NCBI GenBank assembly: GCA_016219965.1
Contig: JACRJM010000015.1
Span: forward strand, 1 to 64,000
Source of the DNA: Candidatus Schekmanbacteria bacterium
GTDB taxonomy: Bacteria > Schekmanbacteria > GWA2-38-11 > J061
DNA: 64,000 nt
Reading direction: 5' to 3'
Each line of letters opens with the position of its first letter. Positions within the stretch are counted from its first letter, which is position 1. Under the pieces are notes generated by a model. That model made no database searches. It had not been told where the DNA came from and saw only the letters and a list, made by a program, of their open reading frames with translations. Positions 8,193-25,504 of the stretch are shown piece by piece. The position numbers were made by a program, and so were the translations under genes.

Positions 8193-8537
8193 ATGCCGCT
8201 GACACAAAAAATATTTGCCCTTGTCGTAAGTGTGCTTATCCTGATCGTAATAGTTGAGCTTGTAAGGCGCAGGAGATTAAGAGAGGAATATTCTTTTTTA
8301 TGGATCATTACCGGCATAACATTGATAATCCTTTCCCTCTGGTACAGGCTTCTCGTTTTTATCACTCACGCCATCGGGGCGGTGCTTCCGACTTCTACGC
8401 TTTTTCTTTTTGGTCTGCTCTTTCTGGTTATGATAAGCCTCCATTTCTCAGTCAAGATATCTAAGCTTACTGACCAGCTTAAGGATGTTGCACAGGAGGT
8501 GGCCATACTAAAAGCAAGTCTTGACGACAGGAAATGA
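8193..8537 (+). CDS. DUF2304 small membrane protein
   Basis: This 114-aa protein has three hydrophobic helices (about residues 5-22, 34-53 and 64-85) and a short C-terminal coiled-coil-like tail rich in Leu, Lys and Asp. Size and layout match DUF2304, a family encoded next to polyprenyl-phosphate GT2 enzymes. An AGGAGG lies 7 nt before the ATG. Its stop overlaps the next start in an ATGA, which suggests translational coupling to the first TPR glycosyltransferase. Confidence 0.75.
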   Translation: MPLTQKIFALVVSVLILIVIVELVRRRRLREEYSFLWIITGITLIILSLWYRLLVFITHAIGAVLPTSTLFLFGLLFLVMISLHFSVKISKLTDQLKDVAQEVAILKASLDDRK

Positions 8538-10546
8538 GTCCCGGCATAAAAAAAACATTGCTACATGAGAGTTGGAAATATCTCCTTTTAGTTATCCTTG
8601 CAGCCGCAGTTTACGGAGGTACTCTTAATTATCCATTCCAGTATGATGACTGGGGATCAATAATCAATAACAGGAGCATCACTTCCATGGCACACCCGGA
8701 AGAGATTTTCTCCTTTGATCCTACGCGGCCTGTTGTCAATCTCTCTTATGCGGTTAACTACTTTATTGGCGCAACGGATCCTGCGCTATACAGGACATTC
8801 AACATCATTGTTCACGTATTGAATTCTGCTTTGCTTTACATACTCTTCGTAAACATAGCTGAAGCAGAAGGATACGCGATTTCAAGGAATGCTTTATTTT
8901 TTTGTGCTTCTATTTTCCTTGTCCAGCCTGTGCAGATAGAGTCGGTAACTTATGTGAGCAGCAGGTCTGAGCTTCTTTCATTTCTCTTTGTGACAGCGTC
9001 GTGGATTCTGTTCTTAAAAGCGGAAAATGAAAAACTTAAAATTCCGCTCTATGCGGTATCATTGTTTTTCTTTCTGATGGCTCTTTTTTCAAAGGAAAGG
9101 GCTGTTGTCTTCCCCATAATATTACTGGCATACATTTGGGTATTCCGGACAGGGAAGGCTGGGATGGTAAAGCGTTCCCTTCTTTCTTTGGCTCCATTTG
9201 TCGCAGTTACTCTTGCCTATTCTTTCTATAGGTTAAAATTTGCCTCAAGCGCCGAAGAGCAGAAAAGTATGATGAGGGAACCGTTAGAGCAGGCTTCAGG
9301 AATGCTTGAATCAATGCGAACTTACCTTAGGCTGCTTTTTTTCCCTGTAAATCAGAACATAGACCATACTATAGGAACACCTCATGGATTTGCCCTTGCA
9401 GCGGAAATAACGGTTCTCGCTGTAGTTATATCTTTTCTCATATGGCTTATAAAGAAGAGATATGACCATCCATTCATTCTTTTTGGGTCTATGATGTTCA
9501 TTATTCCCCTTCTTCCTAATATTATTATTCCTTTAAAAGATATTATGTCTGAACGGTGGCTTTATATGTCTGTTTCAGGGGTTTCGTTTGCAGTCATAGA
9601 GGTTGCTATTTTGCGGACAAAACTTCAACGCGGGGTTTTCATGAAGTGTATCTTGTATGCGGGAATTGCGGTTATTATTTTATTTGCTGCCCTTGCGGCA
9701 AAGAGAAACATGGTTTGGGCAAGTGAAATCTCTCTTTGGGAAGATGCAGCAAAAAAGTCCCCTCTTAAAGCAAGGCCGCGGAATAATCTTGGCTACTGTT
9801 ACGGCAAAGCCGGGGATATATTCAAAGCCCGTGAAGAACTTCAATATGCTTTAAAGCTTGATCCGGGCTATGCTCTTTCCTATTTTAACCTCGGTTTACT
9901 TGATGCATCTGAAGGACACATGGATGACGCCCTCAATAATTACATTAAAGCTTATGATATGGGAAATACCATGAAAGAAAATCTATTTAATATAGGGATG
10001 ATCTATGCACGTAAAGGTCAATATGATATGGCAGAAAAGTGGCTAAGAAGAGTTTTAGACGGAAACCCTGATTATGAACCTGCCCTTGAGAATTTAGCGG
10101 AGCTGCTGTATCATTCTAAAAGGAACGATGAGGCAGTAAGAATTACTGGAAAGCTTGAAGGTCTTGGGATTTTCAGCGTTGAACTCGAGAGAAAAAAAGG
10201 AGATGTTTTTTTTGCTGCCGGTAAAAATGCGACAGCGAGGGAAATTTATTTGAGCTGTCTTAAAAAGGATCCCGGGGATATAGGTTCCCTCCTCGGGTTG
10301 GCTAACACTTATCAGGTTGATGGGGACCCGGAGAGCCTGAATAAGGCGCTTGGTATTTACAGGGAGGCATTGGGTATTAATAAAAATATTTATGAGGCAT
10401 ACGGTAATATGGCGCTTGTTTTATTAAAGATGGGAAACAGGGATGAGGCTGTAACAAGCCTTCAAAAACTTCTCTCCATAAAACCTGATGACTCAAGGGC
10501 AGCTTCAGTTTTAAAATCCATTCAATCAGGGTCATCAAAAAAATAA
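8534..10546 (+). CDS. TMTC-like GT-C glycosyltransferase with TPR domain (copy 1)
   Basis: About ten transmembrane helices (residues 15-390) are followed by roughly seven tetratricopeptide repeats (about 400-665). The first loop carries YPFQYDDWGSIINN, whose acidic pair is the expected GT-C catalytic position. Further family motifs are VQIESVTYVSSRSELLS, LFSKERAVVFP and DIMSERWLYM. This matches bacterial relatives of TMTC (DUF1736) O-mannosyltransferases: lipid-linked sugar is used outside the membrane and the TPR part may bind protein acceptors. The start overlaps DUF2304 by 4 bp (ATGA) and the stop overlaps the next gene. It is the first of five related copies in the window. The acceptor is unknown. 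Confidence 0.8.
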   Translation: MSPGIKKTLLHESWKYLLLVILAAAVYGGTLNYPFQYDDWGSIINNRSITSMAHPEEIFSFDPTRPVVNLSYAVNYFIGATDPALYRTFNIIVHVLNSALLYILFVNIAEAEGYAISRNALFFCASIFLVQPVQIESVTYVSSRSELLSFLFVTASWILFLKAENEKLKIPLYAVSLFFFLMALFSKERAVVFPIILLAYIWVFRTGKAGMVKRSLLSLAPFVAVTLAYSFYRLKFASSAEEQKSMMREPLEQASGMLESMRTYLRLLFFPVNQNIDHTIGTPHGFALAAEITVLAVVISFLIWLIKKRYDHPFILFGSMMFIIPLLPNIIIPLKDIMSERWLYMSVSGVSFAVIEVAILRTKLQRGVFMKCILYAGIAVIILFAALAAKRNMVWASEISLWEDAAKKSPLKARPRNNLGYCYGKAGDIFKAREELQYALKLDPGYALSYFNLGLLDASEGHMDDALNNYIKAYDMGNTMKENLFNIGMIYARKGQYDMAEKWLRRVLDGNPDYEPALENLAELLYHSKRNDEAVRITGKLEGLGIFSVELERKKGDVFFAAGKNATAREIYLSCLKKDPGDIGSLLGLANTYQVDGDPESLNKALGIYREALGINKNIYEAYGNMALVLLKMGNRDEAVTSLQKLLSIKPDDSRAASVLKSIQSGSSKK

Positions 10547-12201
10547 TGATTACAGAAAGCTTGGAATTTGTCAGGAGGAAGAGTGTATTTCTGGCTATCC
10601 TTGCGATCATAGTCTTTCTTATCTATTCCATAAGCCTTGATGCTCCTTTCCACTATGATGATGAAAGGGTCATATACAAAGACAAGAGCATAAGGTCTCT
10701 GGATATTCAGGATATCTTTAAAGCAAATCCTTTTCGCTTTCTGCTTACCCTTTCATTCGCACTCAATTATCATTTTTCCGCTCTTTCCACTTCAGGATAC
10801 AGAATTGTGAATATTCTGATCCATATTGCCAATGTTATTTTTCTTTATCTTCTCATACTGAAGCTTCAGCCCCATCTTTTGAAAGAATATGAGATAAAAG
10901 AGCCTGCTTCGCCTGCCTTCTTATGTTCAATTTTTTTTGCATTAAGCCCTGTCATGGTTGAATCTGTTACATACATATCAAGCAGGTCTGAAATTCTTTG
11001 TGCCTTTTTTATTTTCCCTTCTTTTTATTTTTTGATTTGTTTTCTTGAAAAGGAAAAAAACCTTTATCTTGCAGCTTCTGTATTTTTTTATATTGCGGCA
11101 ACCCTTACTAAGGAAAGGGGAGCAATGCTCTTTTTTCTTCTGCCTGTCGCAGTTTTTTGTATTAATGGCACGAAAAAACTTAAACAGTCTTTTTTGTCAC
11201 TTGCCCCATTTCTTGTTATGGCATGTGTCTATATGTTTTACAGGAAATATGCCAGAGGAGACAGCTTAAGTACAGGCTTTGTGACAGATTCATATCTTCA
11301 TTTTCTTTTACAGGCTGAAGCTTCCCTGAAGAATTTTAGAACCGTCCTTCTGCCGGTAAACCTAAGCATCTTTTACTGGTTTTTTAATCCGCAGAGTTTC
11401 TTTGAATTCAGTGCATCAGGGCATTTATTGCTTTTTGTATTTTCAATCTTTTTTTCCATATTGATTGCGCCAAAAAAGATATGGGTGATTTTCTTCTGGT
11501 GCTGGTATTTTATATTTCTTTCTCCCAATATCATTTTCCCATTTCAGGATATTATGGCTGACCGGTGGCTTTATCTTCCTTCTGCGGGCATCTACAGTAT
11601 ATTCTCTTTTTTTGTATATTGGCTTTTCAGAAAGGAACAATTCTCCAAAACTGCGGTTATCATTGCAGTTATAATATCTTTCTGTTTTGTAGGTATGACA
11701 ATTGACAGGAACAGGGTATGGAAAAGCGGTGTTACTCTCTGGGAAGATACTGTGAAAAAAGCTTTTCTTTCTCCGCGAACGCACAACAATTATGGAGTCG
11801 CACTTGCAACCAGCGGAAAAATTAAAGAGTCAATAAGGGAGTTTCAGATATCTCTGGAAATTAACAAATGGTATTCTCCTGCATGGTCAAACCTTGCCAA
11901 AGCTTATCGCACTGAAGGAAACGAGGAGGAGATGCTGAAAGCAACAAGCGCCCTTGTAGATTGCGGTGAATACTATGTAAAGCAGGGGGCGTATAAAGAG
12001 GCTGTCATGTCTTATAATTCGGTTCTTGAATATGTCCCTGACTCCATTGCTGCGATGGGTAATCTTGCAACAATTTACATCATCATTGGAAATAACGACC
12101 TGGGAAGGAAGTATCTTATGAAATTGCTTGAAATTGCACCTGACAACAAAGCTGCAAGAGAAATGCTCTCACGTATTGGCGAGGGGAATGGAACTGATTA
12201 A
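10546..12201 (+). CDS. TMTC-like GT-C glycosyltransferase with TPR domain (copy 2)
   Basis: This has the same architecture as its neighbour but is shorter (551 aa), with only about three TPR units after the membrane part. Motifs: APFHYDDERVIYKD, VMVESVTYISSRSEILC, TLTKERGAM and DIMADRWLYLPS. It starts in a TAATG overlap with copy 1 and shares 14 bp with copy 3, so the three are one translational unit. The sharing of ESVTYISSRS with copies 1 and 3 but not with the other two copies marks a subfamily that arose by tandem duplication. Confidence 0.8.
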   Translation: MITESLEFVRRKSVFLAILAIIVFLIYSISLDAPFHYDDERVIYKDKSIRSLDIQDIFKANPFRFLLTLSFALNYHFSALSTSGYRIVNILIHIANVIFLYLLILKLQPHLLKEYEIKEPASPAFLCSIFFALSPVMVESVTYISSRSEILCAFFIFPSFYFLICFLEKEKNLYLAASVFFYIAATLTKERGAMLFFLLPVAVFCINGTKKLKQSFLSLAPFLVMACVYMFYRKYARGDSLSTGFVTDSYLHFLLQAEASLKNFRTVLLPVNLSIFYWFFNPQSFFEFSASGHLLLFVFSIFFSILIAPKKIWVIFFWCWYFIFLSPNIIFPFQDIMADRWLYLPSAGIYSIFSFFVYWLFRKEQFSKTAVIIAVIISFCFVGMTIDRNRVWKSGVTLWEDTVKKAFLSPRTHNNYGVALATSGKIKESIREFQISLEINKWYSPAWSNLAKAYRTEGNEEEMLKATSALVDCGEYYVKQGAYKEAVMSYNSVLEYVPDSIAAMGNLATIYIIIGNNDLGRKYLMKLLEIAPDNKAAREMLSRIGEGNGTD

Positions 12202-14320
12202 AAAATTTATATTCCCCATAATCATTGTTGCGGCAGTTTCTTTCGCTTATTTCAATTCCCTCAGGGTTCCTTTCATCTATGATGACCTTAAGGCAGTAAT
12301 GGGAAATTACGGGATTAGGACTTTTGACCCGGTTAAAATATTTGTTGCCTATCCTAACCGTTCATTCAATGATTTGACATTCAGTCTGAACTATCTTTTC
12401 AACAGATTTAACCCTCTTTGGTATCATATAGGAAACATTGTAATCCATATATTGAATGGATTTGCTTTTCTGCTGCTTCTTAAAAAGATTCCGGGATTCG
12501 ATTCAAAAAGGGCTTTTTGTGCTGCAATGATTTTTCTGTTAAACCCTGTAAACGTTGAGTCTGTTACATATATTTCCAGCAGGTCGGGAATGTTAAGCGC
12601 ATTGTTTATGATGCTTGGCCTTTTTTTCTTCATTGATTCAAAGCTCGTCATTTCCCTTATATTCTTCGGGGTATCTGCTTTAAGCAAAGAATGGGGGTTG
12701 GTCTTTCCCTTTATGCTTATTGCATATCTTTATATTTATAAAAGACCCGGGAATAAATCTGAACTATTCAGCTTTATAAAATCCATGATTCCAGCAATTA
12801 TTTTCTGGTGCTTGATCTTTTCCCTGAGAAAATTTCAGGAAGGGACGTTTCTCAAAGAAGAGCTTTCAAAGGGTTATTTTAAACATATTCTTACCCACAT
12901 AAATGCTTCGGTTGAATATGTAAGGCTCCTTTTGTTCCCATTCAATCTTAATGTTGATCATTATTACCCGCTTGTGCAGGATCCTACGATTATTACTTTC
13001 TTCGGTTTCCTCTTAATAGCCGGTGCTTTTTTCATTGCTGTCTCAGAAAGGTTTGAGAGCGGAATAAGATTTTTCATATTGGTCTACTTTATTTCATTTT
13101 TCCCCGTTGTCTTCGTGACTTTAAGCGATATACTCGTTGAACGATGGCTTTATGTCCCTTCGATGGCTTTTGCGGCAATAGTTGTTCTTGTCTTCGGGAA
13201 ATTATTCAGTTCTTCGGTGAAAACAAAAAGACAGAATATTTTTGAAATTTGTTTTTATCTGGTGGTTTTTATTTCTCTACTTTCTCTTACCGTCAATAGA
13301 AACAATATATGGGTAAATGAAATCCGTTTATGGCAGGATTCTGTGAAGAAATCTCCTTTAAAGTCCAGGCCTTATAATAATCTTGGCGTGTGTCTCCTTG
13401 ATCTCGGATATGAAAGTGAAGCGGAAAAAATCTTTTATAAAGCCATTGACCTTGAAAAAGATGGTTATATCCCCTATTCGAATCTGGGGCTTATTTATGG
13501 CAAGAGGAGAGATTATAAAAATGCTGCTCAAATGCTCAGGAAATCAATTGAACTCAAGCCTGATAATGCATTTGCCCATAATAACCTTGGCAATGTTTAC
13601 AAGGAACTTGGGGATTTAAAATCTGCTTATAAAGAATATACTAAGGCAATTGAGCTTGAGAAGAATTACGCTGATGCCTATGGAAATCTTGCTATTTTGT
13701 ACGAAATTCAAGGCAGAAAAGATCTTGCCATAGAGGCTTTAAAAAAGGCTTTTGAGATTGAACCGAACAAATATGAGTGGCTGAACCATTTGGGAGTCAT
13801 TTATCTTGAAATCAGCAACTTCAAAGAGGCTCTGGATACATTCGATAAGGGGTTGAAATCATTCCCTGATAATCCTGAACTGAGAAATAATAAGGGAATC
13901 ACTTATATGAAGCTCAAGAATCTGGAGAGTGCGCTTAATGAATTTAATCTTGCTTTAAAAGTAAACCCTGCTTTCATAAATGCCATTCTTAACAAAGGAA
14001 CTGCATTGAAAGAATTGGGTCGTATTGATGAAGCAGTTGATGCTTTTCTTGCTTCCGATAGAGTAAATGGGAATCTTCCTGCTGTAAAGTTTAACATCGC
14101 ACATCTTTATTATTTAAAGGGGATGTATGACGAATCTGAGAAATGGTTCAGGAAACTTTTACGTTTGGACCAGAAGTCATTTGAAGCTTATGAATATCTC
14201 GGAAGAATAGAAAATATACGTGGAAACAGGGAAGAGGCCATAAAGAATCTGGAAGAGGCAATACGATATGGTGATACGAAAAATGATATAAAAGAGATGC
14301 TTTCTTCCCTGAAAAAATAG
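12188..14320 (+). CDS. TMTC-like GT-C glycosyltransferase with TPR domain (copy 3)
   Basis: 710 aa when started at the ATG at 12188, which has GAGGGG just upstream; a longer TTG start at 12128 lies well inside copy 2 and is unlikely. The membrane part carries PFIYDDLKAVMGN, NVESVTYISSRSGML, SALSKEWGLVFP and DILVERWLYVPS. The C-terminal half is about nine TPR repeats, the longest array of the group, including clean units such as AFAHNNLGNVYKELGD. The predicted role is extracytoplasmic glycosyl transfer with TPR-mediated partner binding. It ends 58 bp before copy 4 with no terminator. Confidence 0.8.
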   Translation: MELIKKFIFPIIIVAAVSFAYFNSLRVPFIYDDLKAVMGNYGIRTFDPVKIFVAYPNRSFNDLTFSLNYLFNRFNPLWYHIGNIVIHILNGFAFLLLLKKIPGFDSKRAFCAAMIFLLNPVNVESVTYISSRSGMLSALFMMLGLFFFIDSKLVISLIFFGVSALSKEWGLVFPFMLIAYLYIYKRPGNKSELFSFIKSMIPAIIFWCLIFSLRKFQEGTFLKEELSKGYFKHILTHINASVEYVRLLLFPFNLNVDHYYPLVQDPTIITFFGFLLIAGAFFIAVSERFESGIRFFILVYFISFFPVVFVTLSDILVERWLYVPSMAFAAIVVLVFGKLFSSSVKTKRQNIFEICFYLVVFISLLSLTVNRNNIWVNEIRLWQDSVKKSPLKSRPYNNLGVCLLDLGYESEAEKIFYKAIDLEKDGYIPYSNLGLIYGKRRDYKNAAQMLRKSIELKPDNAFAHNNLGNVYKELGDLKSAYKEYTKAIELEKNYADAYGNLAILYEIQGRKDLAIEALKKAFEIEPNKYEWLNHLGVIYLEISNFKEALDTFDKGLKSFPDNPELRNNKGITYMKLKNLESALNEFNLALKVNPAFINAILNKGTALKELGRIDEAVDAFLASDRVNGNLPAVKFNIAHLYYLKGMYDESEKWFRKLLRLDQKSFEAYEYLGRIENIRGNREEAIKNLEEAIRYGDTKNDIKEMLSSLKK

Positions 14321-14378
14321 TGATGGTTCACAGATTATACCTGGTAGGATTTCTAAAATATAATTATATCTGGCTGGG

Positions 14379-16403
14379 ATGGATAACTTGACACTTTTTG
14401 AGAAACTTGACCTTAATAACCGCAAGGTATCGCTTGCTTTAATCCTGTTTGTCTCTGCATTCTTGCTCTACTCTTCAACTATTACACATGAGCTCGTTAA
14501 TTATGATGATGACTGGCTCATCAAGGATAACAGCGTTATTAGAAGTCTGAGTTTAAAAAATATATTGAAAATGTTCTCAGGTCCTACTGGAACAGATTAT
14601 CTTCCGCTCAAAGAACTGTCATATGCGCTGGACTACAGGTTGTTTGAGAACAATCCATATGGGTATCATTTAACAAATGTTATCCTTTATAGTGCAACTT
14701 CCGTTCTTGCTTTTCTTTTTCTCTATCAGCTTTCAGGAAAAACATCGTTTTCCTTTGTGGTCTCGCTTCTCTATGTTTTCCATCCAATACATTCTGAAGT
14801 TGTAAACTGGGCGTCAGCCAGAAAAGATTGTCTTGGAGGACTATTTTTCTTTGCCTCTGCGTTGTTTTATGCAAAATATTTAACAAAGAAAAATGGAGCT
14901 AAGCCTTTTCATTATCTTCTATCTCTTTTGTTTTTTTTATTTTCACTTCTTTCAAAGCCTTCAGGCGTGATGCTTCCCTTCCTTCTCTTTCTCATGGCCT
15001 ATTGTTTTTATAATGAAGAAGAAAATCAATTTATCCCTTCCAGGTTATTAATAAATCTGTTCCCCTTTTTTATGATAGCTGCGTTTATCACTTTAATTAC
15101 ACTCAATACCGCAATTGAAAAAGATGTGGTCAAAGAATTCTGGATGGACAGCGCTTACATTACTTTTCTGGCGATGGTCACAGTTGTTGCTGATTATATA
15201 CGTCAGCTTTTCTTCCCTTTTAATCTTCAGGTGCGTTACAATATTGAACTTCCTGCGGCGATTACAGATGTACATGTTCTATTCTCAATATGTTTTTTGA
15301 TTCTTTTATTTGTTACGCTTATTCGATTCAGAAAAAATAAGTGGTATTTTTTCGGTCTTGCCTGGTTTTTTATTTCTCTTGTACCTGTATCAAATATAAT
15401 TCCCATAGCAATATTAAAGGCTGACAGGTACATTTATCTTCCATCCTTTGGAATTATGATCATATTTGGTGCGATTATATTTAAAATTTATAAAACTGAT
15501 ATGAAGAGGCCAAATCCAGAGGCTGTGAAGCTTGGAGTTACTATTTTTATAATTGTTCTTCTGCTTTCTTTCGCCGGTGTTGTTCTCAAGCGGAATAGTG
15601 TATGGGAAAATAGTAAAAAGCTCTGGTTAGATACACTAAAAAAATCTCCGAGCGATTATCTTGTTATGAATAATCTTGGAGCAATATACAACGAGGAAGG
15701 CGACTATGATTCTGCTGAAAAAATCTTCAAGAAGGCAATAAGTATAGGACCGGAATATGCAGATCCTTATTTTAACCTTTCAATAGTATATGAAGAAAGA
15801 AACGATAATGAAGGTGCCTTTGAATACCTTAATAAAGCTATTGAACTTTCAGATAATTCAACAGCAATCTTTAAAGCCAGGATAAATCTCGGTAATCTCT
15901 ATAAAAAACTCAGCATAAGCGAAAAAGCGGAAGAACAATACATGGAAGCGATAAGGGTTAAACCTCATTCACCTGAAGGGTACTATAATCTTGCAATGCT
16001 TTATAAGTCTATGAATTTAAAAGATAAGGCTTATGCTCTTTATAAAAAAGCTATTGACGAAGATGAAAATTTTTATCAAGCATATAATAATCTTGCTAAC
16101 ATGTATATGGCTGATAAGGAATTTGGCAAAGCTCAATTCTATTTTAAGGAAGCTATACGTTTAAATCCTAAATATGTGGAAGTCTTAAATAACCTTGCAA
16201 CTTTATATATTGAGACAGGAAATTCTGAAGATGCTGTTGAGTGTCTTAAAAAAGCGCTCAGCTATGACAACAAGAAATATGACGCGATAATTTATTACAA
16301 CTTATATAAAGCTTATCTTTTGGAGGGCAATCAAACAGAAGCAGCTAAATATTTGAGGCTAAGTGAAGAAATAAATGAGAAATCCACAGCATTTCATAGA
16401 TAA
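14379..16403 (+). CDS. TMTC-like GT-C glycosyltransferase with TPR domain (copy 4)
   Basis: 674 aa, about ten helices then about seven TPR units from residue 420. Motifs: ELVNYDDDWLIKDN, FHPIHSEVVNWASARKD, SLLSKPSGVMLP and ILKADRYIYLPS. The HPIHSEVVNW box is nearer to eukaryotic TMTC and to copy 5 (at 25567) than to copies 1-3, so this belongs to a second subfamily. The ATG at 14379 has a weak purine-rich upstream stretch. No terminator hairpin follows; the next 330 bp hold sigma-54 control elements of the peptide gene. Confidence 0.8.
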   Translation: MDNLTLFEKLDLNNRKVSLALILFVSAFLLYSSTITHELVNYDDDWLIKDNSVIRSLSLKNILKMFSGPTGTDYLPLKELSYALDYRLFENNPYGYHLTNVILYSATSVLAFLFLYQLSGKTSFSFVVSLLYVFHPIHSEVVNWASARKDCLGGLFFFASALFYAKYLTKKNGAKPFHYLLSLLFFLFSLLSKPSGVMLPFLLFLMAYCFYNEEENQFIPSRLLINLFPFFMIAAFITLITLNTAIEKDVVKEFWMDSAYITFLAMVTVVADYIRQLFFPFNLQVRYNIELPAAITDVHVLFSICFLILLFVTLIRFRKNKWYFFGLAWFFISLVPVSNIIPIAILKADRYIYLPSFGIMIIFGAIIFKIYKTDMKRPNPEAVKLGVTIFIIVLLLSFAGVVLKRNSVWENSKKLWLDTLKKSPSDYLVMNNLGAIYNEEGDYDSAEKIFKKAISIGPEYADPYFNLSIVYEERNDNEGAFEYLNKAIELSDNSTAIFKARINLGNLYKKLSISEKAEEQYMEAIRVKPHSPEGYYNLAMLYKSMNLKDKAYALYKKAIDEDENFYQAYNNLANMYMADKEFGKAQFYFKEAIRLNPKYVEVLNNLATLYIETGNSEDAVECLKKALSYDNKKYDAIIYYNLYKAYLLEGNQTEAAKYLRLSEEINEKSTAFHR

Positions 16404-16482
16404 AAATAACTAATTGGGAATACAACGATGTTGTTAAATAGTTTAAAATCAGCTATGGGTGATGTAAATGAAAAATATTATT

Positions 16483-16499
16483 TGTCGGGTTTTTGAACA
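16483..16499 (+). promoter_or_regulatory. UAS-like box 1 (candidate enhancer-binding-protein site)
   Basis: TGTCGGGTTTTTGAACA. It shares TGTCGG-N5-TGAACA with box 2, which starts exactly 63 bp downstream (about six helical turns), so both would face the same side of the DNA. Confidence 0.5.
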
Positions 16500-16545
16500 T
16501 TTTTTCCTTATAAAAAACAATAGGTTGATTTTATTCAAAAAAAAA

Positions 16546-16562
16546 TGTCGGAATACTGAACA
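16546..16562 (+). promoter_or_regulatory. UAS-like box 2 (candidate enhancer-binding-protein site)
   Basis: TGTCGGAATACTGAACA, 111 bp upstream of the -24 element. The first nine bases are identical to the box at 41038 (TGTCGGAATTTTAGACA), upstream of the EPS regulator. The distance is typical for a sigma-54 activator. Confidence 0.6.
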
Positions 16563-16630
16563 TTATTTTTGTTTGAACATAATTGAAATGGAAGAAGCTG
16601 GAATTATCTATTTCAATAAATTGACCTATT

Positions 16631-16643
16631 TATCAATAGGTTA
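16631..16643 (+). promoter_or_regulatory. IHF-type binding site
   Basis: TATCAATAGGTTA matches the IHF consensus WATCAANNNNTTR at every fixed position. It sits between the UAS boxes and the sigma-54 promoter, where IHF bends DNA in classical RpoN promoters. It also forms the right half of an imperfect inverted repeat (TTGACCTATT / AATAGGTTAA). Confidence 0.55.
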
Positions 16644-16672
16644 AATGATGGCAAAGTGGCTGAATATTTTAG

Positions 16673-16688
16673 TGGCATAAAAATTGCT
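16673..16688 (+). promoter_or_regulatory. Sigma-54 (RpoN) promoter for peptide and lipoprotein
   Basis: TGGCAT-N5-TTGCT matches TGGCAC-N5-TTGCW except for one T, with the GG and GC exactly 12 nt apart. Transcription would begin near 16699, giving a leader of about 37 nt before the ATG at 16736. Confidence 0.65.
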
Positions 16689-16735
16689 TTTCCTTCACCA
16701 AAAGGACTTTTTATTAATAAAATGGAGGTACTTCA

Positions 16736-16897
16736 ATGAATAATAATGGAAAGGGGAAACACGAAAAACGTGACAACAAGGATGTTTCTCCAAAGAAGAA
16801 ACCTTTCAACGAGCCAAGGATCAAAATCTACAGCAAGCTCGAAGACATCACTCTGTTCACTTCAGTTTCTAATGTAACAGGCACCACGTTCTTTTAA
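16736..16897 (+). CDS. 53-aa peptide with lasso/RRE-type leader motif
   Basis: This small ORF has an ideal Shine-Dalgarno (GGAGG at 16724-16728, 7 nt before ATG). The first half is hydrophilic (Lys/Asn-rich, residues 1-22). Residues 24-39, FNEPRIKIYSKLEDIT, fit the lasso-peptide leader pattern Y-x2-P-x-L-x3-G-x5-T with conservative changes (Phe24, Pro27, Ile29, Ser33, Thr39). That pattern is read by PqqD-like RRE domains. The 14-residue tail, TLFTSVSNVTGTTFF less its first Thr, is rich in Thr/Ser and has no Asp, Glu or Cys, so a canonical lasso ring is not possible. No lasso cyclase or protease is in the window. It lies 74 bp before the 1062-aa lipoprotein with no terminator, so the two are likely co-transcribed from the sigma-54 promoter. 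Function unknown. Confidence 0.7.
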   Translation: MNNNGKGKHEKRDNKDVSPKKKPFNEPRIKIYSKLEDITLFTSVSNVTGTTFF

Positions 16898-16971
16898 ATG
16901 GTTAGTATTGCTGGAAGATTCAGATAATTTTAGAATAAAATCCAAGATTTATATAATTAAGGAGAGGCAAA

Positions 16972-19900
16972 ATGAATAAATGGAGATTGGGCTTTAAACT
17001 AGCTGCCATATTCTTCTGTCTGGTTTTTATGGTCGGACTATACGGATGTGGAGGAGGGGGCAGCAGCGGTGGAGATTCAGGAAAGCCGTCAGCATCAAAG
17101 AGTTCAAAAGCAAGTCCTGCAGAAAAAAAACCTTATGCATCATTTAAAGGAAGTGTAGACATCGAAAAGGGTACGATTACTTTCACTTATAATGATGGGA
17201 AGTCAAAGTCAAATCGTCGTGCTGCCAGAAAACAGTATTATGATTACTATCCTGATGTTAATAATCAGGCAAAACTCACAAGCACTGGACTGTCATGGGA
17301 TGGTACAAATAAAATATTGACAGGCAATATTACTATTACAAACAACACCAGTGACACTTTTTATGCAACCCATGTAGTTATAACATCTATTACAGGCGGT
17401 GCATCAGTTTTAAACGAAAATGGTTATGACCCTGATGGTTATGCTTTTTTTAACCATGCCCCTAATGGCGAGAAAATAACACCAGCTGCTACCGGTTCAG
17501 CGGTAACATGGAAATTTTCTGATCCTGCATCAGTTAGTTTCAATTTTACGGGAAATGTTTATGCAGACAACTGGCATCAGATAGCAGGTCCGGGTGTAAG
17601 TTTTGGCTGGGACAATGCAACAGCAGAAGATGCAACGGATACAGTGGACAACTTTTTCTTTAACAGTGTTGAGGGTTATAACGGCAAGGTTTACGGTGTA
17701 ATAGGTAAGATGGACCGTCCAAACCGAGATGATTCAAGCAATACCCGCACCGGTGGAGAGGTTTGGGAATATGACCCTACATTAACCAGTTTTACGCAGG
17801 TAAACAGCGACGGGTGGGCCAATCTTGGAACAGATGCTTATGGTGTTTTGAACACTATGTTTAACAACTGGGGCGGTGCCACAACTACTTATAACGGTAA
17901 TCTCTATGTGACCGGCGGCAAGCATAACTTCCTCGGTGGACTTGAGGACAGGATGAATGACGGAGGTGACCTTTTCAGATATAACGGAAGTTCATGGACA
18001 AAGGTATATACAAATACTGATGCCAATGCGTTATATAATGTTTTCAGTTTTGACGGTAGTATATTTGCAGGTACCATAGGAGCAGGTTACGGCAGGACAT
18101 GGCTTTCAAGCAACCAGGATGGAGACCTTGCATGGTCATCATCTGGTGATGCAGGCACATGGACACTTGTCATGACTGATGCTTTTAATGATGATGTTCC
18201 AACCCTTCCAGCTACTAATCCTGGCAAAAGAGTGGGTGGTGCGATTTTAGGCGGTGGAACAGTAACCTTGCCTAGTGGAGTACATGGTTATACAGGTAAA
18301 GGCGGTGGTACAGCTAAGCCCGGTGTTGTACTCTATATAGCGGATACAAAGATTGGCGGAGGCGGTGGGCGTCTTGAAAGCGACTGGACCTGTGCCAATG
18401 ATTTTACATCTGATGATGCATCATACATAATGGGGGCAGTAACGCAGCCGTGGAATGCAGGAAGCGCAGAGTATTCTGTTAACGTAAACGGGACGACCCT
18501 TACACCACATGCCCATGCCCATCATTTTGCGACAATAACTCAGGGATCGAATGAATTTGTCAATGTCACTGTAATTGACAATACTACGACTAAGCTTATT
18601 ATAGGACTCCACGCAGGAGGATTCACACCTGCATCAGGCAATACCATAAGACTTACAACCGGCAACAATGAGCGCGGCTGGGGCGAGACAGGAAATGCCA
18701 CAAGTTCGCAGCTCGCTACGTTCACTCCGTCAAGTGAAGGTTCAGCCGGAACACAGGAGCAGATATGGCTATTGTCATCAAACCTGCCGCAGGGTGTAGG
18801 ACCATACATCAATGCAGGCGGCGAGTTGTTTACAGTGAAAAATGTGCAATCTAATAATAGAACAAATGACAGTGACTGGATAAGAAGGATGGATAGTTTC
18901 AGCATTACAAGTGAATTTGGATATGCGACACCATCAACATCAGGCGGTGCTAACAAGGGTGGGACTGTAGTATCACCTGTTCCTATCTATGCAGGTTTTG
19001 ACGCAGGCATAGACCCAGGCAGCCCAAATGACGTATATGGTAGAAGCGAATTTACACTATTCCCGGGAAATCATCAGGGATGGCTATATGTGACAGTCCA
19101 GCCGTTCCAGAGAGTTAACGGGGGCTGCCGTATGTATAAGACAGCAGACGGTGTGAACTGGATAACAGTTACAACAGATGGTTTTGGCGACAACGAGCTG
19201 GTCATAAAGAATTATGCATCCGTAGGCGGGAAGCTTTATGGAGGCGGCGGCAGGCTTGCAAGCAATGATGCGCTTTGTATAAAGAGTCAGTTGGCTGGAC
19301 AGTATATATCAAGCGGCAATATAACACCGAGCGATACCACTTTCATACAGCCCGCTGGTGCATTCCCTACTCCTTCAGCAGAGTATCCTACATCTGGCGC
19401 CCTGTTGCTTCAGGCAAGGACTCCTCTCGGTGAACCGGTTCTGCAGAGTTACATTTATTCTGAGAAGGTGACCTATACTTCTAACAGGATATCAACAGCG
19501 GCAACCCTTACGAATGCGCTTTCAGCAAACAATGGATACCTTGGAAGGACTTTGTGGGCTACAGACACGACATTGGTTCTAAGCAACATACCCGGAAACC
19601 TTGGGCTTGATACAAGCAAGGGAGGAGTTTGCATAGAAAGTGAAGTAATTACATATGACGGTGTTTCAGGGAGCACTCTTGGAACTCTTACGCGAAGCGG
19701 CACTGTTGTACATCCTGATTATTCAGGCGTCGGCAACCATAACAAGGGAGCGCCGGTATTCAGGACAACAAGGATAGGCACAACTGAAGCAGGACGTAAC
19801 GACGGGATTGCCGGAGTTCCATACAGTATCGTACTGGGTGGTACTGTTGCAAATATTCCTTCTAAGAAAAACGATAACCTGTCTAACATATTGATTGACA

Positions 19901-20160
19901 ATGAAGAGATTAAATTCACGCAGAGAACCACTACAGCGGGTGTGGTTACATGGGATGCAACAGGAGTGCAGATAAGGACCCCAGTACGCGGTTTTGACAG
20001 TACAAGAACGACTGCGCATTCTGCTAGTACCGCAGTTTATCTACCCGGTTTTGACGGGGTTACAAGAGGAGTTCTTGGTACTACTGCAACCAAGTGGGAT
20101 TCCGGTGAAGACGGAGTTCTCATATCTCTTCCGCCAGTTGAATTGTGGGTAACAGATTGA
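16972..20160 (+). CDS. Large secreted lipoprotein of unknown function (copy A)
   Basis: 1062 aa. A hydrophobic signal ends in the lipobox LYGC at about residues 24-27, then a Gly/Ser linker, so it is predicted to be lipidated and exported. AAGGAG precedes the ATG. No catalytic motif is recognised. Residues of about 215-420 contain kelch-like stretches (YNGNLYVTGGKH, FDGSIFAGTIGAGYGRTW) suggesting beta-propeller blades; later parts are Gly/Thr/Ser-rich and beta-predicted. It is closely related along its whole length to the protein at 22282. The position after the leader peptide and under the same sigma-54 promoter suggests a joint role at the cell surface; what it binds is unknown. Confidence 0.75.
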   Translation: MNKWRLGFKLAAIFFCLVFMVGLYGCGGGGSSGGDSGKPSASKSSKASPAEKKPYASFKGSVDIEKGTITFTYNDGKSKSNRRAARKQYYDYYPDVNNQAKLTSTGLSWDGTNKILTGNITITNNTSDTFYATHVVITSITGGASVLNENGYDPDGYAFFNHAPNGEKITPAATGSAVTWKFSDPASVSFNFTGNVYADNWHQIAGPGVSFGWDNATAEDATDTVDNFFFNSVEGYNGKVYGVIGKMDRPNRDDSSNTRTGGEVWEYDPTLTSFTQVNSDGWANLGTDAYGVLNTMFNNWGGATTTYNGNLYVTGGKHNFLGGLEDRMNDGGDLFRYNGSSWTKVYTNTDANALYNVFSFDGSIFAGTIGAGYGRTWLSSNQDGDLAWSSSGDAGTWTLVMTDAFNDDVPTLPATNPGKRVGGAILGGGTVTLPSGVHGYTGKGGGTAKPGVVLYIADTKIGGGGGRLESDWTCANDFTSDDASYIMGAVTQPWNAGSAEYSVNVNGTTLTPHAHAHHFATITQGSNEFVNVTVIDNTTTKLIIGLHAGGFTPASGNTIRLTTGNNERGWGETGNATSSQLATFTPSSEGSAGTQEQIWLLSSNLPQGVGPYINAGGELFTVKNVQSNNRTNDSDWIRRMDSFSITSEFGYATPSTSGGANKGGTVVSPVPIYAGFDAGIDPGSPNDVYGRSEFTLFPGNHQGWLYVTVQPFQRVNGGCRMYKTADGVNWITVTTDGFGDNELVIKNYASVGGKLYGGGGRLASNDALCIKSQLAGQYISSGNITPSDTTFIQPAGAFPTPSAEYPTSGALLLQARTPLGEPVLQSYIYSEKVTYTSNRISTAATLTNALSANNGYLGRTLWATDTTLVLSNIPGNLGLDTSKGGVCIESEVITYDGVSGSTLGTLTRSGTVVHPDYSGVGNHNKGAPVFRTTRIGTTEAGRNDGIAGVPYSIVLGGTVANIPSKKNDNLSNILIDNEEIKFTQRTTTAGVVTWDATGVQIRTPVRGFDSTRTTAHSASTAVYLPGFDGVTRGVLGTTATKWDSGEDGVLISLPPVELWVTD

Positions 20161-20200
20161 TGTAGAAATAAAGAATATAAAGATTGATAAAATATCCATT

Positions 20201-20239
20201 CCCCCGGCAAACAGAGCTTTGCCGGGGGATTTTAATTTC
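20201..20239 (+). terminator. Rho-independent terminator
   Basis: A perfect 11-bp GC-rich stem (CCCCCGGCAAA / TTTGCCGGGGG) with a 6-nt loop, followed by a T-rich tail, lies 40 bp after the lipoprotein stop. It would close the peptide-lipoprotein transcript. Confidence 0.85.
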
Positions 20240-20415
20240 TATTGACAAAATATTATACTTGTGAAAACCCTATTCACAGTTACAAAAACCTTTTTTAATA
20301 ACTTCTAATGCAAATGACATTATTGGCTTATTTAAAAACTGTCTTCAAACTAACCGTATTCCATAAAACTTACAGTAGAACTAATCGTGCATCTATAATA
20401 TCTTAGGAGGATACT

Positions 20416-22224
20416 ATGAGCTTAAGAACAAAAGAAGCGGGGAAGAAAAGATATTACAACATTGTTTTTTTTGTCACCCTATTTATGCTAGCTTTTACTG
20501 TTGCTTCCTATGCTGATTTTTCTAAAGCAACTATATTACTAGATTCAGCAGTGACATCTGATGTGGGAAATAAGGCAACTGCAGCTGATTTTGATAATGA
20601 TGGTAATGATGAGATTTTTATTGCTAATAACGGTCAGGACAGACTTTTAAAATATAATGCAGACACACAAGAATTTGATAGTCTTCCTTTACCGATTGAT
20701 TCAGATGACAGCAAGGGGATCGCTGTAGGATATATAGATGGAGACACTTATCTTGATATTATAGTTGCAAATTTCGAAGGACAAAGCAGGGTTCTTATCA
20801 ATGATGGAGATGGCACATTTACTGATGAAACAAGCACATGGCTTCCTTCAGAGACTATGGCAGCAGTAAGTGCATCTTTAGGAGACATTGACAATGATGG
20901 TGACCTTGACCTTGTAATAGGGTTAGCACGTCCAAGTTTTGAAAATAGTGAAAGCGTAGATACTATAAAGGTTTATATTAATAATGGTTCAGCGTTTACT
21001 GATGCAACATCAACATGGATTCCTTCTCCGTCCGCCAATTGGGTAGAGAAAGTAATTCTTGAGGATTTAAACAATGACAGCAAAGCTGATCTTTTAGTCT
21101 TTGTAGGTCTTAATAATCCAAATTATCTTTATATGAGCAGTGGTACGACCTTTACTGATGAAACTGCAACACGCTTTCCTACTGTAATAACTTCTACTAA
21201 CACAGTGACCTCAGCGGCAATAGGAGATCTTACCGGTGATGGAGCACCTGATATATATATTACTAAAGATGGCAATAACAAAAACATGATCTACATAAAT
21301 GATGGAAGCGGGACTTTCACAGATGAAACAATTACGCGACTTCCCGATGTATCGGACTATGGACAGGATGTCTCAATTTCAGATGTAAATGGTGATGGGA
21401 ATCTTGATATTGTTGTTGCAAATGGCGGAGAAGGTGGACTTAATCCAAATCCTCCTTATGAGTTTAATATATGTTATGCTGATGGACATAGTAATGCGGT
21501 ATATCTGAATAATGGCAGTGGAATTTTTACTGCTGCGTCAACTTCATTTTTCGAAGATACTGATAATCAGTATTCAACCGGTGTTGTTGCAGGTGAGTTT
21601 GGCGCTGCTGACACATCTTATATCCTTTTTACAAACGCATGTTCTGGCGGACCTGCATTATGGTCAAGCGGTTCCGTAGCGTCACCTACTCCTGCAATAT
21701 CAAGTTTTTCACCCGATACAATTGCTCCATATGCGGCACTCACTATTAGCGGGGAAAATTTTGGAGCTGACAAAGGCTCAGTTACATTTACAAGCACTAA
21801 TGTTACTGGAACAATAAGCGCAGCATCTACGGAAATCACATCATGGAGCGACACTGTTATAACTCTTACGGTTCCGTTCGGAGCCAATACCGGCGATGTG
21901 ACTGTTACAAGGCTGTCTGACAGCTCAGTAAGTGCCCCGGCAACTCTTACTATTTCTAATTTCAAGCCTAAAATAACAAAATCACCTAAAACAGGGAAAC
22001 GCGGAAAGTCCATTACAATTATAGGAAGTAACTTTGGAAACTCCAAGAAACCTTCTGGAGCTAAGGCTGGCTCTGTCACAATCGGAGGCAAGGCTGCAAC
22101 TATTAAAAGCTGGAGCAACAAGAAGATAGTGGCGGTTATAAATAAGAACGCCAAGAAGGGTAAGCAAAAGATTATACTTAAGACCCACTATGGAACTGTT
22201 AACAAAGCAATAACTGTCAAATAA
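20416..22224 (+). CDS. Secreted FG-GAP/VCBS-repeat protein with C-terminal IPT/TIG domains
   Basis: 602 aa. A signal peptide ends near ASYA (residue about 34). Residues 50-410 hold about seven FG-GAP/VCBS repeats with Ca-binding loops of the DxDxDG type (ADFDNDGNDEIFIANN, GDIDNDGDLDLVIG, SDVNGDGNLDIVVANG), as in integrin-alpha-like propellers. Two IPT/TIG Ig-like domains follow (ISSFSPDTIAPYAALTISGENFG and ITKSPKTGKRGKSITIIGSNFG), and the end is Lys-rich. A strong AGGAGG precedes the ATG. It is probably an extracellular, calcium-stabilised adhesion or binding protein. It sits between the two copies of the large lipoprotein, with its own upstream region after a terminator. Confidence 0.8.
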   Translation: MSLRTKEAGKKRYYNIVFFVTLFMLAFTVASYADFSKATILLDSAVTSDVGNKATAADFDNDGNDEIFIANNGQDRLLKYNADTQEFDSLPLPIDSDDSKGIAVGYIDGDTYLDIIVANFEGQSRVLINDGDGTFTDETSTWLPSETMAAVSASLGDIDNDGDLDLVIGLARPSFENSESVDTIKVYINNGSAFTDATSTWIPSPSANWVEKVILEDLNNDSKADLLVFVGLNNPNYLYMSSGTTFTDETATRFPTVITSTNTVTSAAIGDLTGDGAPDIYITKDGNNKNMIYINDGSGTFTDETITRLPDVSDYGQDVSISDVNGDGNLDIVVANGGEGGLNPNPPYEFNICYADGHSNAVYLNNGSGIFTAASTSFFEDTDNQYSTGVVAGEFGAADTSYILFTNACSGGPALWSSGSVASPTPAISSFSPDTIAPYAALTISGENFGADKGSVTFTSTNVTGTISAASTEITSWSDTVITLTVPFGANTGDVTVTRLSDSSVSAPATLTISNFKPKITKSPKTGKRGKSITIIGSNFGNSKKPSGAKAGSVTIGGKAATIKSWSNKKIVAVINKNAKKGKQKIILKTHYGTVNKAITVK

Positions 22225-22281
22225 ATGGGAAAAATCAATCTGGTAAATTGCTCTTAAATTAATTTTAGGGAGATCTATAAG

Positions 22282-25200
22282 ATGAAAAAGGTTAAAAAAA
22301 CTTATTTAAGCAATTGGGCAATTATATCAGCAATTATACTCTTTCTCTCTATCGGAGGTTGCGGTGGAAGCGGAGGCGGAGGGGGAAGTGATGGAGGCAG
22401 TAGTGGTGGAGCAAAATCATCTTCCAAAAAAATAGTTTCCGGTAAAAGGCCTTTACAAAGGGTATTGGTGCGCGTTGATGTAAGAAACGGAACTTCAACT
22501 TTTAAATATCTTGAAAATAGTGATAGCGGAAAAAGACGTTCAGCAAGGAAAGATTTGAAATCTGATAATAGTGTTACAATCAATTCGATTGATTCATGGG
22601 ATTCAGTCCAGAAAGTTTATACTTCAAAAGTTTCCCTTACTAACAATACATCCGGAAATCTTTATGGAACTATCGCGAGTATTGACAGTTTTACTGTTGG
22701 CGGGGTAGGGGTAATAAACGAATATGGTTATGATCATGCAGGTAAACCATTTTTCAATCATGCCCCGAACGGAGAATCTATTGCTGCCAGCGCTACGGGA
22801 AGTGAAATAGTCTGGAAATTTTCTGACCCTGAAGCAGATGATTTTTCTTATACAGCAAGCGTATATGCTGACAACTGGCATCAGATAGCAGGTCCGGGTA
22901 CAAGCTTTGGTTGGGATAATCTGACAGCAGAAGATGCAACGGATACAGTGGACAATTATTTCTTTACAAGTGTTGAGAACTATAATGGTAAGGTTTATGG
23001 CGTCATAGGCAAGATGGACCGTCCAAACCGTAATGAAACAAGCAATCCCCGTACCGGCGCAGAAATTTGGGAATACGATCCTACGTCAGGTGATTTTACA
23101 CAGGTTAACAGCGACGGGTGGCTGAATTTAGACTCAGATATTTACGATGTTGAGAATTGCATATTTAACAACTGGGGCGGTTCAACGACTGTTTATAATG
23201 GCAATCTTTATGTAACTGGAGGTAAACATTATTTCCTCGGTGGAGTTGAGGACAGGATGAATGGCGGCGCAGATCTTTTCAGGTATAACGGAAGTTCATG
23301 GACAAAAGTATATAATAATACAGATTGCAATGCCTTTTACAATGTTTTCAGTTTTGACGGCAGTATATTTGCAGGTTCCATTGGGGCAGGTTACGGCAGG
23401 ACATGGCTTTCAAGCAACCAGGATGCAGACCTTTCGTGGTCATCATCTGGTGATGCTGGTTCCTGGACACTTGTTATGACAGATGCCTTTAAAGACCTTG
23501 TTTCTCAAGCAGCTTCCGACAGTCCCAGCAGGTATGTCGGTGGTGCTATTTTGGGTGGTGGGGAAGTGACTCTTCTTGATGGTTCTGTTCATGGTTATAC
23601 GGGTAAAGGTGGCGGTTCATCCAAACCCGGTGTTGTACTCTATATAGCAGACACTAAAGTTGGTGGAGGCGGCGGTCGTCTTGAAAGCGACTGGACTCTT
23701 GCCAATGATTTTACATCTGATGACACGACATACACAATAGCTTCAGTAACACAGCCATGGCATGAGAACAGTGGAGAGTATTCTATTACCTTAAGTGGTG
23801 GTCCTGCACTTGCACCCCATCTGTATGCCCATCATTATGCACCTATAACGCAGGGAGCGACAGAATGGGTAAATGTAACTGTAATTGATAACACGGCAAC
23901 TCAGGTTATTGTGGGTATCCACGCCGGTGGATTTGTGCCTGCAATAGGTGATACTATCAGGCTTACCAGTGGTAGCAATGAACGTGGCTGGGGTGAGACA
24001 GGTAATGCCACAAGTTCCCAGTTATTTGTATTCTCTCCGTCAAGCGAAGGTTCAACCGGTACTCAGGAGCAGTTGTGGCTGTTGTCATCAAACTTACCGC
24101 AAGGTCTTGGACCATACATAAATGCAGGTGGCGAGTTGTTCTCAGTGAAAAGTGTGCAGTCGAATAATAGAACAAATGACAGTGACTGGATAAGGAGAAT
24201 GGATAGTTTTAGTATTACAAGTGAATATGGATACGCAACCCCATCGACAAAAGGCGGTGCCAACAAGGGTGGAAGTGTAACCTCTCCAGTTCCAGTTTAT
24301 GCAGGATTTGATGCAGGTATTGATCCAGGAAATCCAACTGATGTTTACGGGAGGGGTGAATTTACCTTATTTCCAGGAAATCACGATGGATGGCTTTATG
24401 TGACGGTCCAGCCGTTCCAGAGAGTAAACTCCGGCTGCCGTATATATAAGTCAGCAGACGGAGTAAACTGGATTACAGTTACAACGGATGGTTTTGGAGA
24501 CAATGAGTTGATTTTAAGAACATACACCTCTGTTGGAGGCAAGCTTTATGCTGGTGGAAGCAGACTTGCAAGCAATGATGCGATGTGTATAAAAAGTCAG
24601 TTGGATGGGCAGTGGATATCAAGCGGTAATATAACGCCGAGCGACACCACTTTCTTGCAGCCAGCAGGAGCATTTCCTACTCCTTCAATAGAGTATCCTT
24701 CATCAGGTACACTTTTACTTGAAGCAAGAACACCACTTGGCGAACCAGTTCTGCAGAGTTATATTTATTCCGAGAAAATGACCTATACTTCTAACAAGGT
24801 AGCAACAGGGGCAACCCTTACCACGGCTCTTTCCTCAAACAATGGATACCTTGGAAGGACTCTGTGGGCAACTGATACCACATTGGTTCTAAACGACATA
24901 CCAGGCAACCTTGGCCTTGACACAAGCAAGGGAGGAGTTTGCATAGAAAGTGAAGTAATTACATATGACGGTGTTTCAGGAAGCACACTTGGAACACTTA
25001 CACGGAGCGGTAGTGTGGTACAACCTGATTATTCAGGAGTTGGCAACCATAATAAGGGTGCACCTGTGTTCAGAACTACAAGAATTGGCGCGAATGAAGC
25101 ATCACGAAATGATGGAATTTCAGGTGTTCCATACAGTATTGCACTCGGTGGCACTGTTACAGGAATCCCTTCAAAGAAAAATGATAATCTGACTAACATA

Positions 25201-25473
25201 GTAATTGACAACGAAGAGATTAAATTCACGCAGAGAACCACTACAGCGGGTGTGACAACATGGGATACAACAGGAGTACAGATAAGAACCCCTGTACGAG
25301 GTTTTGACAGCACAAGAACGACTGCTCATTCCGCTGGTACAGCAATTTATTCCCCCGGTTTCAGCGGGGTTACAAGAGGAGTTCTGGGTACTACTGCAAC
25401 CAAGTGGGACTCAGCTGAAGACGGACTTCTTATATCAAGTCCGCCAGTTGAAATGTGGGTGACAGATTATTGA
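22282..25473 (+). CDS. Large secreted lipoprotein of unknown function (copy B)
   Basis: 1063 aa, a full-length paralogue of the protein at 16972. The signal sequence and first 150 residues differ most; the lipobox is IGGC, then a Gly/Ser-rich linker. From about residue 200 the two align almost without gaps and share blocks such as DNWHQIAGPG, GKMDRPNR, YGRTWLSSNQD and FTLFPGNH. Some DNA tracts of 39-50 bp are identical while others differ at many third positions, which hints at gene conversion. It is only 57 bp after the FG-GAP gene, so these two are probably co-transcribed. Unlike copy A it has no leader peptide and no sigma-54 site upstream. Confidence 0.75.
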   Translation: MKKVKKTYLSNWAIISAIILFLSIGGCGGSGGGGGSDGGSSGGAKSSSKKIVSGKRPLQRVLVRVDVRNGTSTFKYLENSDSGKRRSARKDLKSDNSVTINSIDSWDSVQKVYTSKVSLTNNTSGNLYGTIASIDSFTVGGVGVINEYGYDHAGKPFFNHAPNGESIAASATGSEIVWKFSDPEADDFSYTASVYADNWHQIAGPGTSFGWDNLTAEDATDTVDNYFFTSVENYNGKVYGVIGKMDRPNRNETSNPRTGAEIWEYDPTSGDFTQVNSDGWLNLDSDIYDVENCIFNNWGGSTTVYNGNLYVTGGKHYFLGGVEDRMNGGADLFRYNGSSWTKVYNNTDCNAFYNVFSFDGSIFAGSIGAGYGRTWLSSNQDADLSWSSSGDAGSWTLVMTDAFKDLVSQAASDSPSRYVGGAILGGGEVTLLDGSVHGYTGKGGGSSKPGVVLYIADTKVGGGGGRLESDWTLANDFTSDDTTYTIASVTQPWHENSGEYSITLSGGPALAPHLYAHHYAPITQGATEWVNVTVIDNTATQVIVGIHAGGFVPAIGDTIRLTSGSNERGWGETGNATSSQLFVFSPSSEGSTGTQEQLWLLSSNLPQGLGPYINAGGELFSVKSVQSNNRTNDSDWIRRMDSFSITSEYGYATPSTKGGANKGGSVTSPVPVYAGFDAGIDPGNPTDVYGRGEFTLFPGNHDGWLYVTVQPFQRVNSGCRIYKSADGVNWITVTTDGFGDNELILRTYTSVGGKLYAGGSRLASNDAMCIKSQLDGQWISSGNITPSDTTFLQPAGAFPTPSIEYPSSGTLLLEARTPLGEPVLQSYIYSEKMTYTSNKVATGATLTTALSSNNGYLGRTLWATDTTLVLNDIPGNLGLDTSKGGVCIESEVITYDGVSGSTLGTLTRSGSVVQPDYSGVGNHNKGAPVFRTTRIGANEASRNDGISGVPYSIALGGTVTGIPSKKNDNLTNIVIDNEEIKFTQRTTTAGVTTWDTTGVQIRTPVRGFDSTRTTAHSAGTAIYSPGFSGVTRGVLGTTATKWDSAEDGLLISSPPVEMWVTDY

Positions 25474-25504
25474 TAATTTATAGCATTTGAAAATTGAGTG
25501 AATG

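Follow-up and report, generated by a model that had tools for sequence, protein, structure and literature searches.

A candidate modified-peptide precursor with a lasso-type leader, encoded beside a giant lipoprotein in a Candidatus Schekmanbacteria genome

The peptide gene, its leader and its predicted core

The DNA stretch analysed here (the window) covers 64,000 nucleotides, positions 1 to 64,000 of contig JACRJM010000015.1 from a Candidatus Schekmanbacteria bacterium (assembly GCA_016219965.1). Our subject is a 53-residue peptide encoded on its forward strand, P0001, a candidate precursor of a ribosomally synthesized and post-translationally modified peptide (RiPP), whose leader would be bound by a RiPP recognition element (RRE). 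It was compared within the source genome (G000, 3.58 Mb), among the four genomes of the order (G000-G003) and in a survey of 386 genomes. The features of the peptide gene are as follows.

16673..16688, + strand: sigma-54-like promoter TGGCATAAAAATTGCT, an exact match to TGGCAT-N5-TTGCT, 47 nt 5' of the peptide start
16724..16728, + strand: Shine-Dalgarno sequence GGAGG, read from the sequence, preceding the ATG of the peptide gene
16736..16897, + strand: candidate RiPP precursor P0001, 53 aa, identified by translation, paralogues and homologues, and purifying selection
16805..16852, + strand: predicted RRE-binding leader motif F(-17)xxP(-14)xI(-12)...L...D-I-T(-2), residues 24-39, FNEPRIKIYSKLEDIT
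16856..16894, + strand: predicted core FTSVSNVTGTTFF, residues 41-53, 13 residues, S43 being core position 3

The reading frame is translated as MNNNGKGKHEKRDNKDVSPKKKPFNEPRIKIYSKLEDITLFTSVSNVTGTTFF. By sequence analysis the 53-residue gene was confirmed as real, with conservation exceeding chance, because it has a Shine-Dalgarno site, is under purifying selection (pN/pS of 0.14-0.51 over the last 33 codons of five copies, synonymous sites being near-saturated) and has a sigma-54-like promoter in common with a related genome: the peptide gene of G002 carries the same element (TGGCATAATTTTTGCT) 54 nt upstream. The exact sigma-54-like pattern was found three times on the + strand of the window and not at all on the - strand. 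The other two + strand sites (41138-41153 and 48312-48327) lie just 5' of genes in the polysaccharide region.

The initial annotation had described a peptide with a lasso-type leader and a non-lasso core at this position, and both translation and conservation agree with it. Residues 24-39 fit the pattern Y/F-x2-P-x-L/I-x3-G/S-x5-T as it had proposed, with Phe rather than Tyr at -17 and Ser at the Gly/Ser position. Residue-shuffled copies of the peptide matched the leader pattern in 0.036% of cases, and among the 370 small open reading frames (ORFs) of the window about 0.09 matches were expected and one was found. When T39 is taken as the penultimate lasso residue (-2), F24, P27 and I29 fall at -17, -14 and -12. 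This spacing was counted as lasso-like because it equals that of Y(-17)/P(-14)/L(-12) and the penultimate residue in tested lasso leaders, in which these three positions were examined by alanine replacement (PMC10368454); in that system the B1 protein helps the kinase to phosphorylate core Ser3 and also helps B2 to remove the leader (PMC10368454). Across thirteen aligned homologous sequences P27 and T39 did not vary at all and K21 and L35 hardly varied, whereas the tails diverged. The NCBIfam model lasso_leader_L3 (NF033521) gave no match to the peptide or in the rest of the genome, and searches of Pfam and NCBIfam assigned the peptides to no family.

Cleavage is placed after L40 by analogy with the Thr(-2) rule, and the numbering of S43 as core position 3 presupposes this site. 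The five order members always have 13 residues after L40, of the form F-[TS]-[ST]-x-x-N-x-x-G-[TG]-[TS]-F-F, in which F41, N46, G49, F52 and F53 are invariant and core position 3 is always Ser or Thr. None of the five cores contains Asp, Glu or Cys, and the Thr/Ser-rich tail of P0001 (residues 41-53) is thus free of Asp and Glu, as had been noted before.

Three paralogues are encoded in the source genome, a tandem pair at C1:67.3-67.6 kb and a single copy at C3:350.0-350.2 kb, and the copy of the order outside this genome belongs to G002, from a different family. More distant homologues were detected in G023, G308, G192, G043, G320, G350 and G227. Residues 24-39 are conserved in the homologues, including the three paralogues. 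A PEP-CTERM-like protein (VPEPSTFLLLLAGFAVAGVRK; L013:10440-11246(-), G000:C3) is encoded directly upstream of the C3 copy. Two matches were discarded: that of Subsaximicrobium (L017, the sole one from a named collection) is a frame read antisense to an ABC-F-like gene, and that of G200 lies inside a ribosomal protein gene; the G100 and G366 matches are members of genuine lasso clusters with a cyclase.

A PqqD, kinase, radical SAM and B2 cassette elsewhere in the genome

Family searches of flanking genes (12128-29143) revealed neither a cyclase nor any other RiPP enzyme, in agreement with the earlier remark that no cyclase is nearby. The initial annotation had suggested searching the genome for PqqD/RRE proteins and for transglutaminase-like proteases; four of the former score above the PF05402 Pfam cut-off, and a lasso-B2 transglutaminase-like peptidase is present. 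One PqqD gene and the B2 gene belong to a cassette with a kinase and a radical S-adenosylmethionine (SAM) enzyme.

G000:C14:93750-96516: cassette of PqqD, HprK-like kinase, radical SAM and lasso-B2 peptidase genes, identified by profile matches

The C14 B2 protein scores 55 bits against NF033537 (lasso B2; cut-off 33), and no NCBIfam maturase model matched the radical SAM protein above its cut-off. The C14-type four genes occur in all four order genomes, with identical neighbours in G000, G001 and G002, and in none of the four does a recognisable precursor stand beside the cassette. The Cys and His of B2 and the GK and SDD residues of HprK are kept in every sequence aligned.

In three other lineages (G043, G192 and G350) a peptide with this leader is contiguous with enzymes of this kind. 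The gene order in G192 is B2, peptide (AFIEPKLTKQESLVKSTLF...), HprK and radical SAM, and that in G043 is PqqD, lipoprotein, peptide (KYSKPTVKKNEPLVNITF...), HprK, radical SAM, lipoprotein and B2. Two further genomes were reached via B2 alone: G350, with an ORF (KPFVKPMLIRHESLPEVT) between B2 and radical SAM, and G320, with a peptide (KKSYQKPEIKKNKHLVNVT, E = 1.5e-8) on a different contig from the set. In G227 at least four peptides of the form YxxPxL...LRD[IV]T accompany genes for PqqD, B2, HprK, radical SAM and an NTP-transferase-like protein. In the radical SAM tree the C14 protein joins those of G043, G192, G188, G320 and G350 in one clade (support 100/99), and the proteins of the other radical SAM cassettes in the same genomes, three of these cassettes being in the source genome, fall outside it, as does that of G227. 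Stand-alone Transglut_core3 was found in 37 of the 386 surveyed genomes but in 6/6 peptide-bearing ones (P = 5e-7, uncorrected); counted over four lineages the association gives P = 7e-5, and the two lineages in which peptide and set lie apart give P = 0.009.

Giant lipoproteins and membrane proteins around the peptide

The genes flanking P0001 are the following.

16972..20160, + strand: lipoprotein, 1062 aa, lipobox LYGC (C26), candidate partner, 74 bp 3' of the peptide gene
22282..25473, + strand: paralogous lipoprotein, 75% identical by sequence comparison, without a peptide of its own
14379..16403, + strand: TPR membrane protein upstream of the peptide; the order TPR, peptide, lipoprotein is also found in G002

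A lipoprotein of about 1050 aa is encoded directly downstream of the peptide at all four order loci (window, G000:C1, G000:C3 and G002:C37), and the family members at the peptide loci are 45-83% identical to that of the window. Full-length lipoproteins number five in G000, two in G002 and none in G001 or G003, so that their presence tracks that of the peptide across the four genomes, all of which carry the C14-type set. The suggestion that the giant downstream lipoprotein may be a partner of the peptide gains from this adjacency and from the pattern of presence and absence. No peptide was found upstream of the second window lipoprotein or of those at G000:C15:493268 and G002:C16. The peptides of G023 and G043 also adjoin lipoproteins, but full-length comparison detected no membership of these in the same family.

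The window lipoprotein matched no Pfam or NCBIfam family, a PDB sequence search gave chance-level matches only, and AlphaFold2 returned no usable fold (mean pLDDT 28 from two sequences). Five similar TPR-tailed membrane proteins, four of them in tandem, are encoded at 8534-16403 and 25567-27528 of the window, and a tandem upstream of the peptide also occurs in G002.

A linear RRE-guided precursor as the best explanation

We consider it most probable (about 0.74) that P0001 gives rise to a linear RiPP that is RRE-guided and made without a cyclase, matured in trans and most likely by the C14 set. The assignment to this class is well supported by genomic association, and the C14 set is the likely maturing machinery, favoured because contiguous peptide-bearing sets elsewhere carry the C14 radical SAM clade and B2. 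The idea in the initial annotation of a substrate for an unfamiliar RRE-guided modification is thus strengthened by the four PqqD proteins, the lasso-B2 peptidase and the conserved residues 24-39, RRE guidance itself being proposed from genomic association; for its other idea, that the leader docks to an exopolysaccharide component, no support was found. Neither of the two findings that the annotation had named as refuting it, a genome devoid of RRE proteins and homologues that do not conserve residues 24-39, was obtained.

The sequences themselves show the gene and its conservation, its position next to the lipoprotein gene, the C14 cassette, and the loci of other lineages in which peptide and cassette are contiguous. 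The course that we infer, from leader binding through the order and identity of the modifications, cleavage and export to promoter use, partnership and function, is the following. The leader F24-T39 would be bound by a PqqD-family RRE, most likely that of the C14 set, which would serve at least four scattered precursors in trans. The HprK-like kinase probably phosphorylates a hydroxyl residue of the core, S43 being the first candidate, the radical SAM enzyme would add a modification of some kind, and B2 would cut after L40 and free a 13-residue product. The peptide and the giant lipoprotein would be produced in one sigma-54-dependent unit, and the product would therefore most likely act at the cell envelope together with the lipoprotein.

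Several observations weigh against this explanation. The aromatic residue at -17 is Phe throughout the order, instead of Tyr, and outside the order a Ser or Thr at core position 3 is found only in two G227 peptides. Two of the five full-length lipoproteins of the source genome lack a peptide, and the N-terminal similarity of the window lipoprotein to those of G023 and G043 is weak (hhalign E = 0.001 and 0.026, each from a single pair) and suggestive only. The G350 ORF is likewise a weak match (E = 0.026). The cassette is kept in G001 and G003 (drafts of 370 and 160 contigs, G003 being 70% complete), yet no matching peptide was found there, and the cassette would therefore have other or undetected substrates in these genomes. 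G023 and G308 have a related peptide and no kinase or radical SAM gene adjoining their PqqD-B2 pair, and therefore the modification may differ in them. Finally, the source genome has three further PqqD cassettes that might act on the peptide.

This last point opens the strongest alternative, which we regard as unlikely: P0001 may be an RRE-guided precursor matured, in a manner like that of the linear polyphosphorylated peptides (LPPs) discussed below, by one of these cassettes, either of the two that include a signal-peptidase/S24-like protease (C4:132 kb and C4:210 kb) or the one at C15:233 kb. Each of the three contains PqqD, HprK-like kinase and radical SAM genes, an S24-like peptidase is encoded in two of them, and their gene content is close to the LPP set (PMC13381572). 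Two of them, however, have their own, different leader-like small ORFs (L015:9735-9911 and L016:8613-8816), their radical SAM proteins share 24-29% identity with that of C14, and the peptide-containing sets elsewhere carry the C14 clade and B2.

These loci and a related one can be described in their own right. The small ORF MKRREFLEKGKKTLTVAAAASVVKKWISPKLISLDDSAYAD... (L016:8613-8816(-), G000:C15, ~231.6 kb), beside radical SAM, PqqD and HprK genes, is kept in G001 (L084:1394-1603(+)) and encodes a Tat-like signal with a WxxPxLI leader-like motif fused to it and, after the motif, a tail rich in Lys and Cys. At L015:9735-9911(+) (G000:C4, ~210.7 kb) a peptide ...KYVQPEVITYTNDDVIKHLGPAQACSTTPCTVSPSGSGF lies between PqqD and an FG-GAP protein, with radical SAM-SPASM, HprK-like, C25-type peptidase and S24-like signal peptidase genes downstream, which makes this a distinct second RiPP-like locus. 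At L014:5655-11526(+) (G000:C4, ~128-134 kb) a subtilase-CARDB exported protein is followed by radical SAM, PqqD, HprK-like and S24-like peptidase genes, an LPP-like gene set plus a radical SAM enzyme that is also found in G001 (L085). In G002 (C36) a peptide MKYEKPELKSLNLKNPEPKSPNDEKIETAGGDVCTEGGNAGTCNIGYDDGHLTGG (L086:6158-6325(-)) lies near PqqD and two radical SAM genes.

It is still less probable that P0001 is a small unmodified protein, with a basic Lys-rich N-terminus and a hydrophobic F-F end serving as a chaperone or tether of the lipoprotein, and that the leader motif is coincidental. The strict lipoprotein adjacency within the order would suit such a role, as would the conserved C-terminal FF, whereas many RiPP cores vary; against it, the motif is the part best conserved across lineages while the tail diverges, and homologues sit within PqqD/B2/kinase/radical SAM sets.

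That P0001 is a genuine lasso precursor whose cyclase is encoded far away, or the relic of such a precursor, is very improbable in spite of the lasso-like leader with Thr(-2) and the lasso-B2 peptidase in the genome. The acceptor Asp or Glu is missing at core 7-9 and elsewhere in every order core, core position 1 is Phe, and purifying selection on four copies speaks against a relic. The two large Asn_synthase proteins score 221 and 183 bits, far under the lasso cyclase cut-off of 525, and this and the missing acceptor together exclude a lasso by the usual rule. Both proteins are of the asparagine synthase/XrtA amidotransferase type, two short weak Asn_synthase matches also occur at C7 and C4, and the C14 cassette has none.

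For the linear RRE-guided precursor, the closest known system is that of the LPPs, cyclase-less RiPPs from capsule loci of Bacillota that have an RRE, an SpI peptidase and an HprK kinase whose target is core Ser3 (PMC13381572, Nat Commun 2026). The present system resembles it in combining a discrete RRE with an HprK-type kinase and no cyclase, in the [Y/W]xxPx[V/L] leader, in the polysaccharide-gene neighbourhood and in a leader peptidase working with the RRE. It differs in that LPPs use an SpI-type serine peptidase, where the C14 set has lasso B2 (S24/SpI-like genes being in two other cassettes), are cleaved behind T(-1), come from Bacillota and have a core set that lacks a radical SAM enzyme, their loci also encoding an NTP transferase and an exporter; here the set includes a radical SAM enzyme, and the precursors lie away from it, beside giant lipoproteins. 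From the LPP motif YxxPxVLxHQxIxFETxxS the peptide shares the YxxPx[V/L] part only and has no HQxI or FET segment.

Phosphorylated lasso peptides of the paeninodin and Bsf types (PMC10368454, PMC5067487) share the Y(-17)/P(-14)/L(-12)/(-2) spacing, a PqqD-type B1, B2 and an HprK-type kinase acting on a core Ser, and the C14 set holds this B1 (PqqD) and B2 pair of lasso systems, away from the peptide. The present case differs from them in having no macrolactam cyclase or ring-closing Asp/Glu, Phe in place of Gly/Ser/Ala at core 1 and an extra radical SAM enzyme. About half of the matches to the lasso-RRE model of RRE-Finder occur without peptidase and cyclase, and about 300 of its false positives sit with radical SAM enzymes (PMC7470986); the present set resembles such cases among RRE-associated radical SAM RiPPs (sactipeptide, ranthipeptide and related maturases; PMC7470986). 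Unlike sacti- and ranthipeptides, P0001 has no Cys in its core, and therefore no thioether is expected, and the C14 radical SAM protein is below all NCBIfam maturase cut-offs. We found no description of a PqqD-HprK-radical SAM-lasso B2 set with these precursors in the literature searched, which left most subscription journals outside.

More tentatively, and as a possibility that we hold with less than even confidence, these loci may represent an additional class of RRE-guided RiPP in which a single conserved PqqD-HprK-radical SAM-B2 set acts in trans on several dispersed precursors, each produced with its own giant lipoprotein under sigma-54, and in which the short modified, lariat-less peptide would serve a surface protein as a functional component or as its ligand and would not be a secreted antibiotic. 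For reconstitution, the analysis supplies a defined precursor, a set of four enzymes and a prediction of the product. If the explanation is true, the lasso leader, RRE and B2 would form a general docking and trimming unit usable without a cyclase and together with an uncharacterised radical SAM clade, and such peptides would be tied to surface lipoproteins, which would give a testable role to RiPPs that lack an assigned one.
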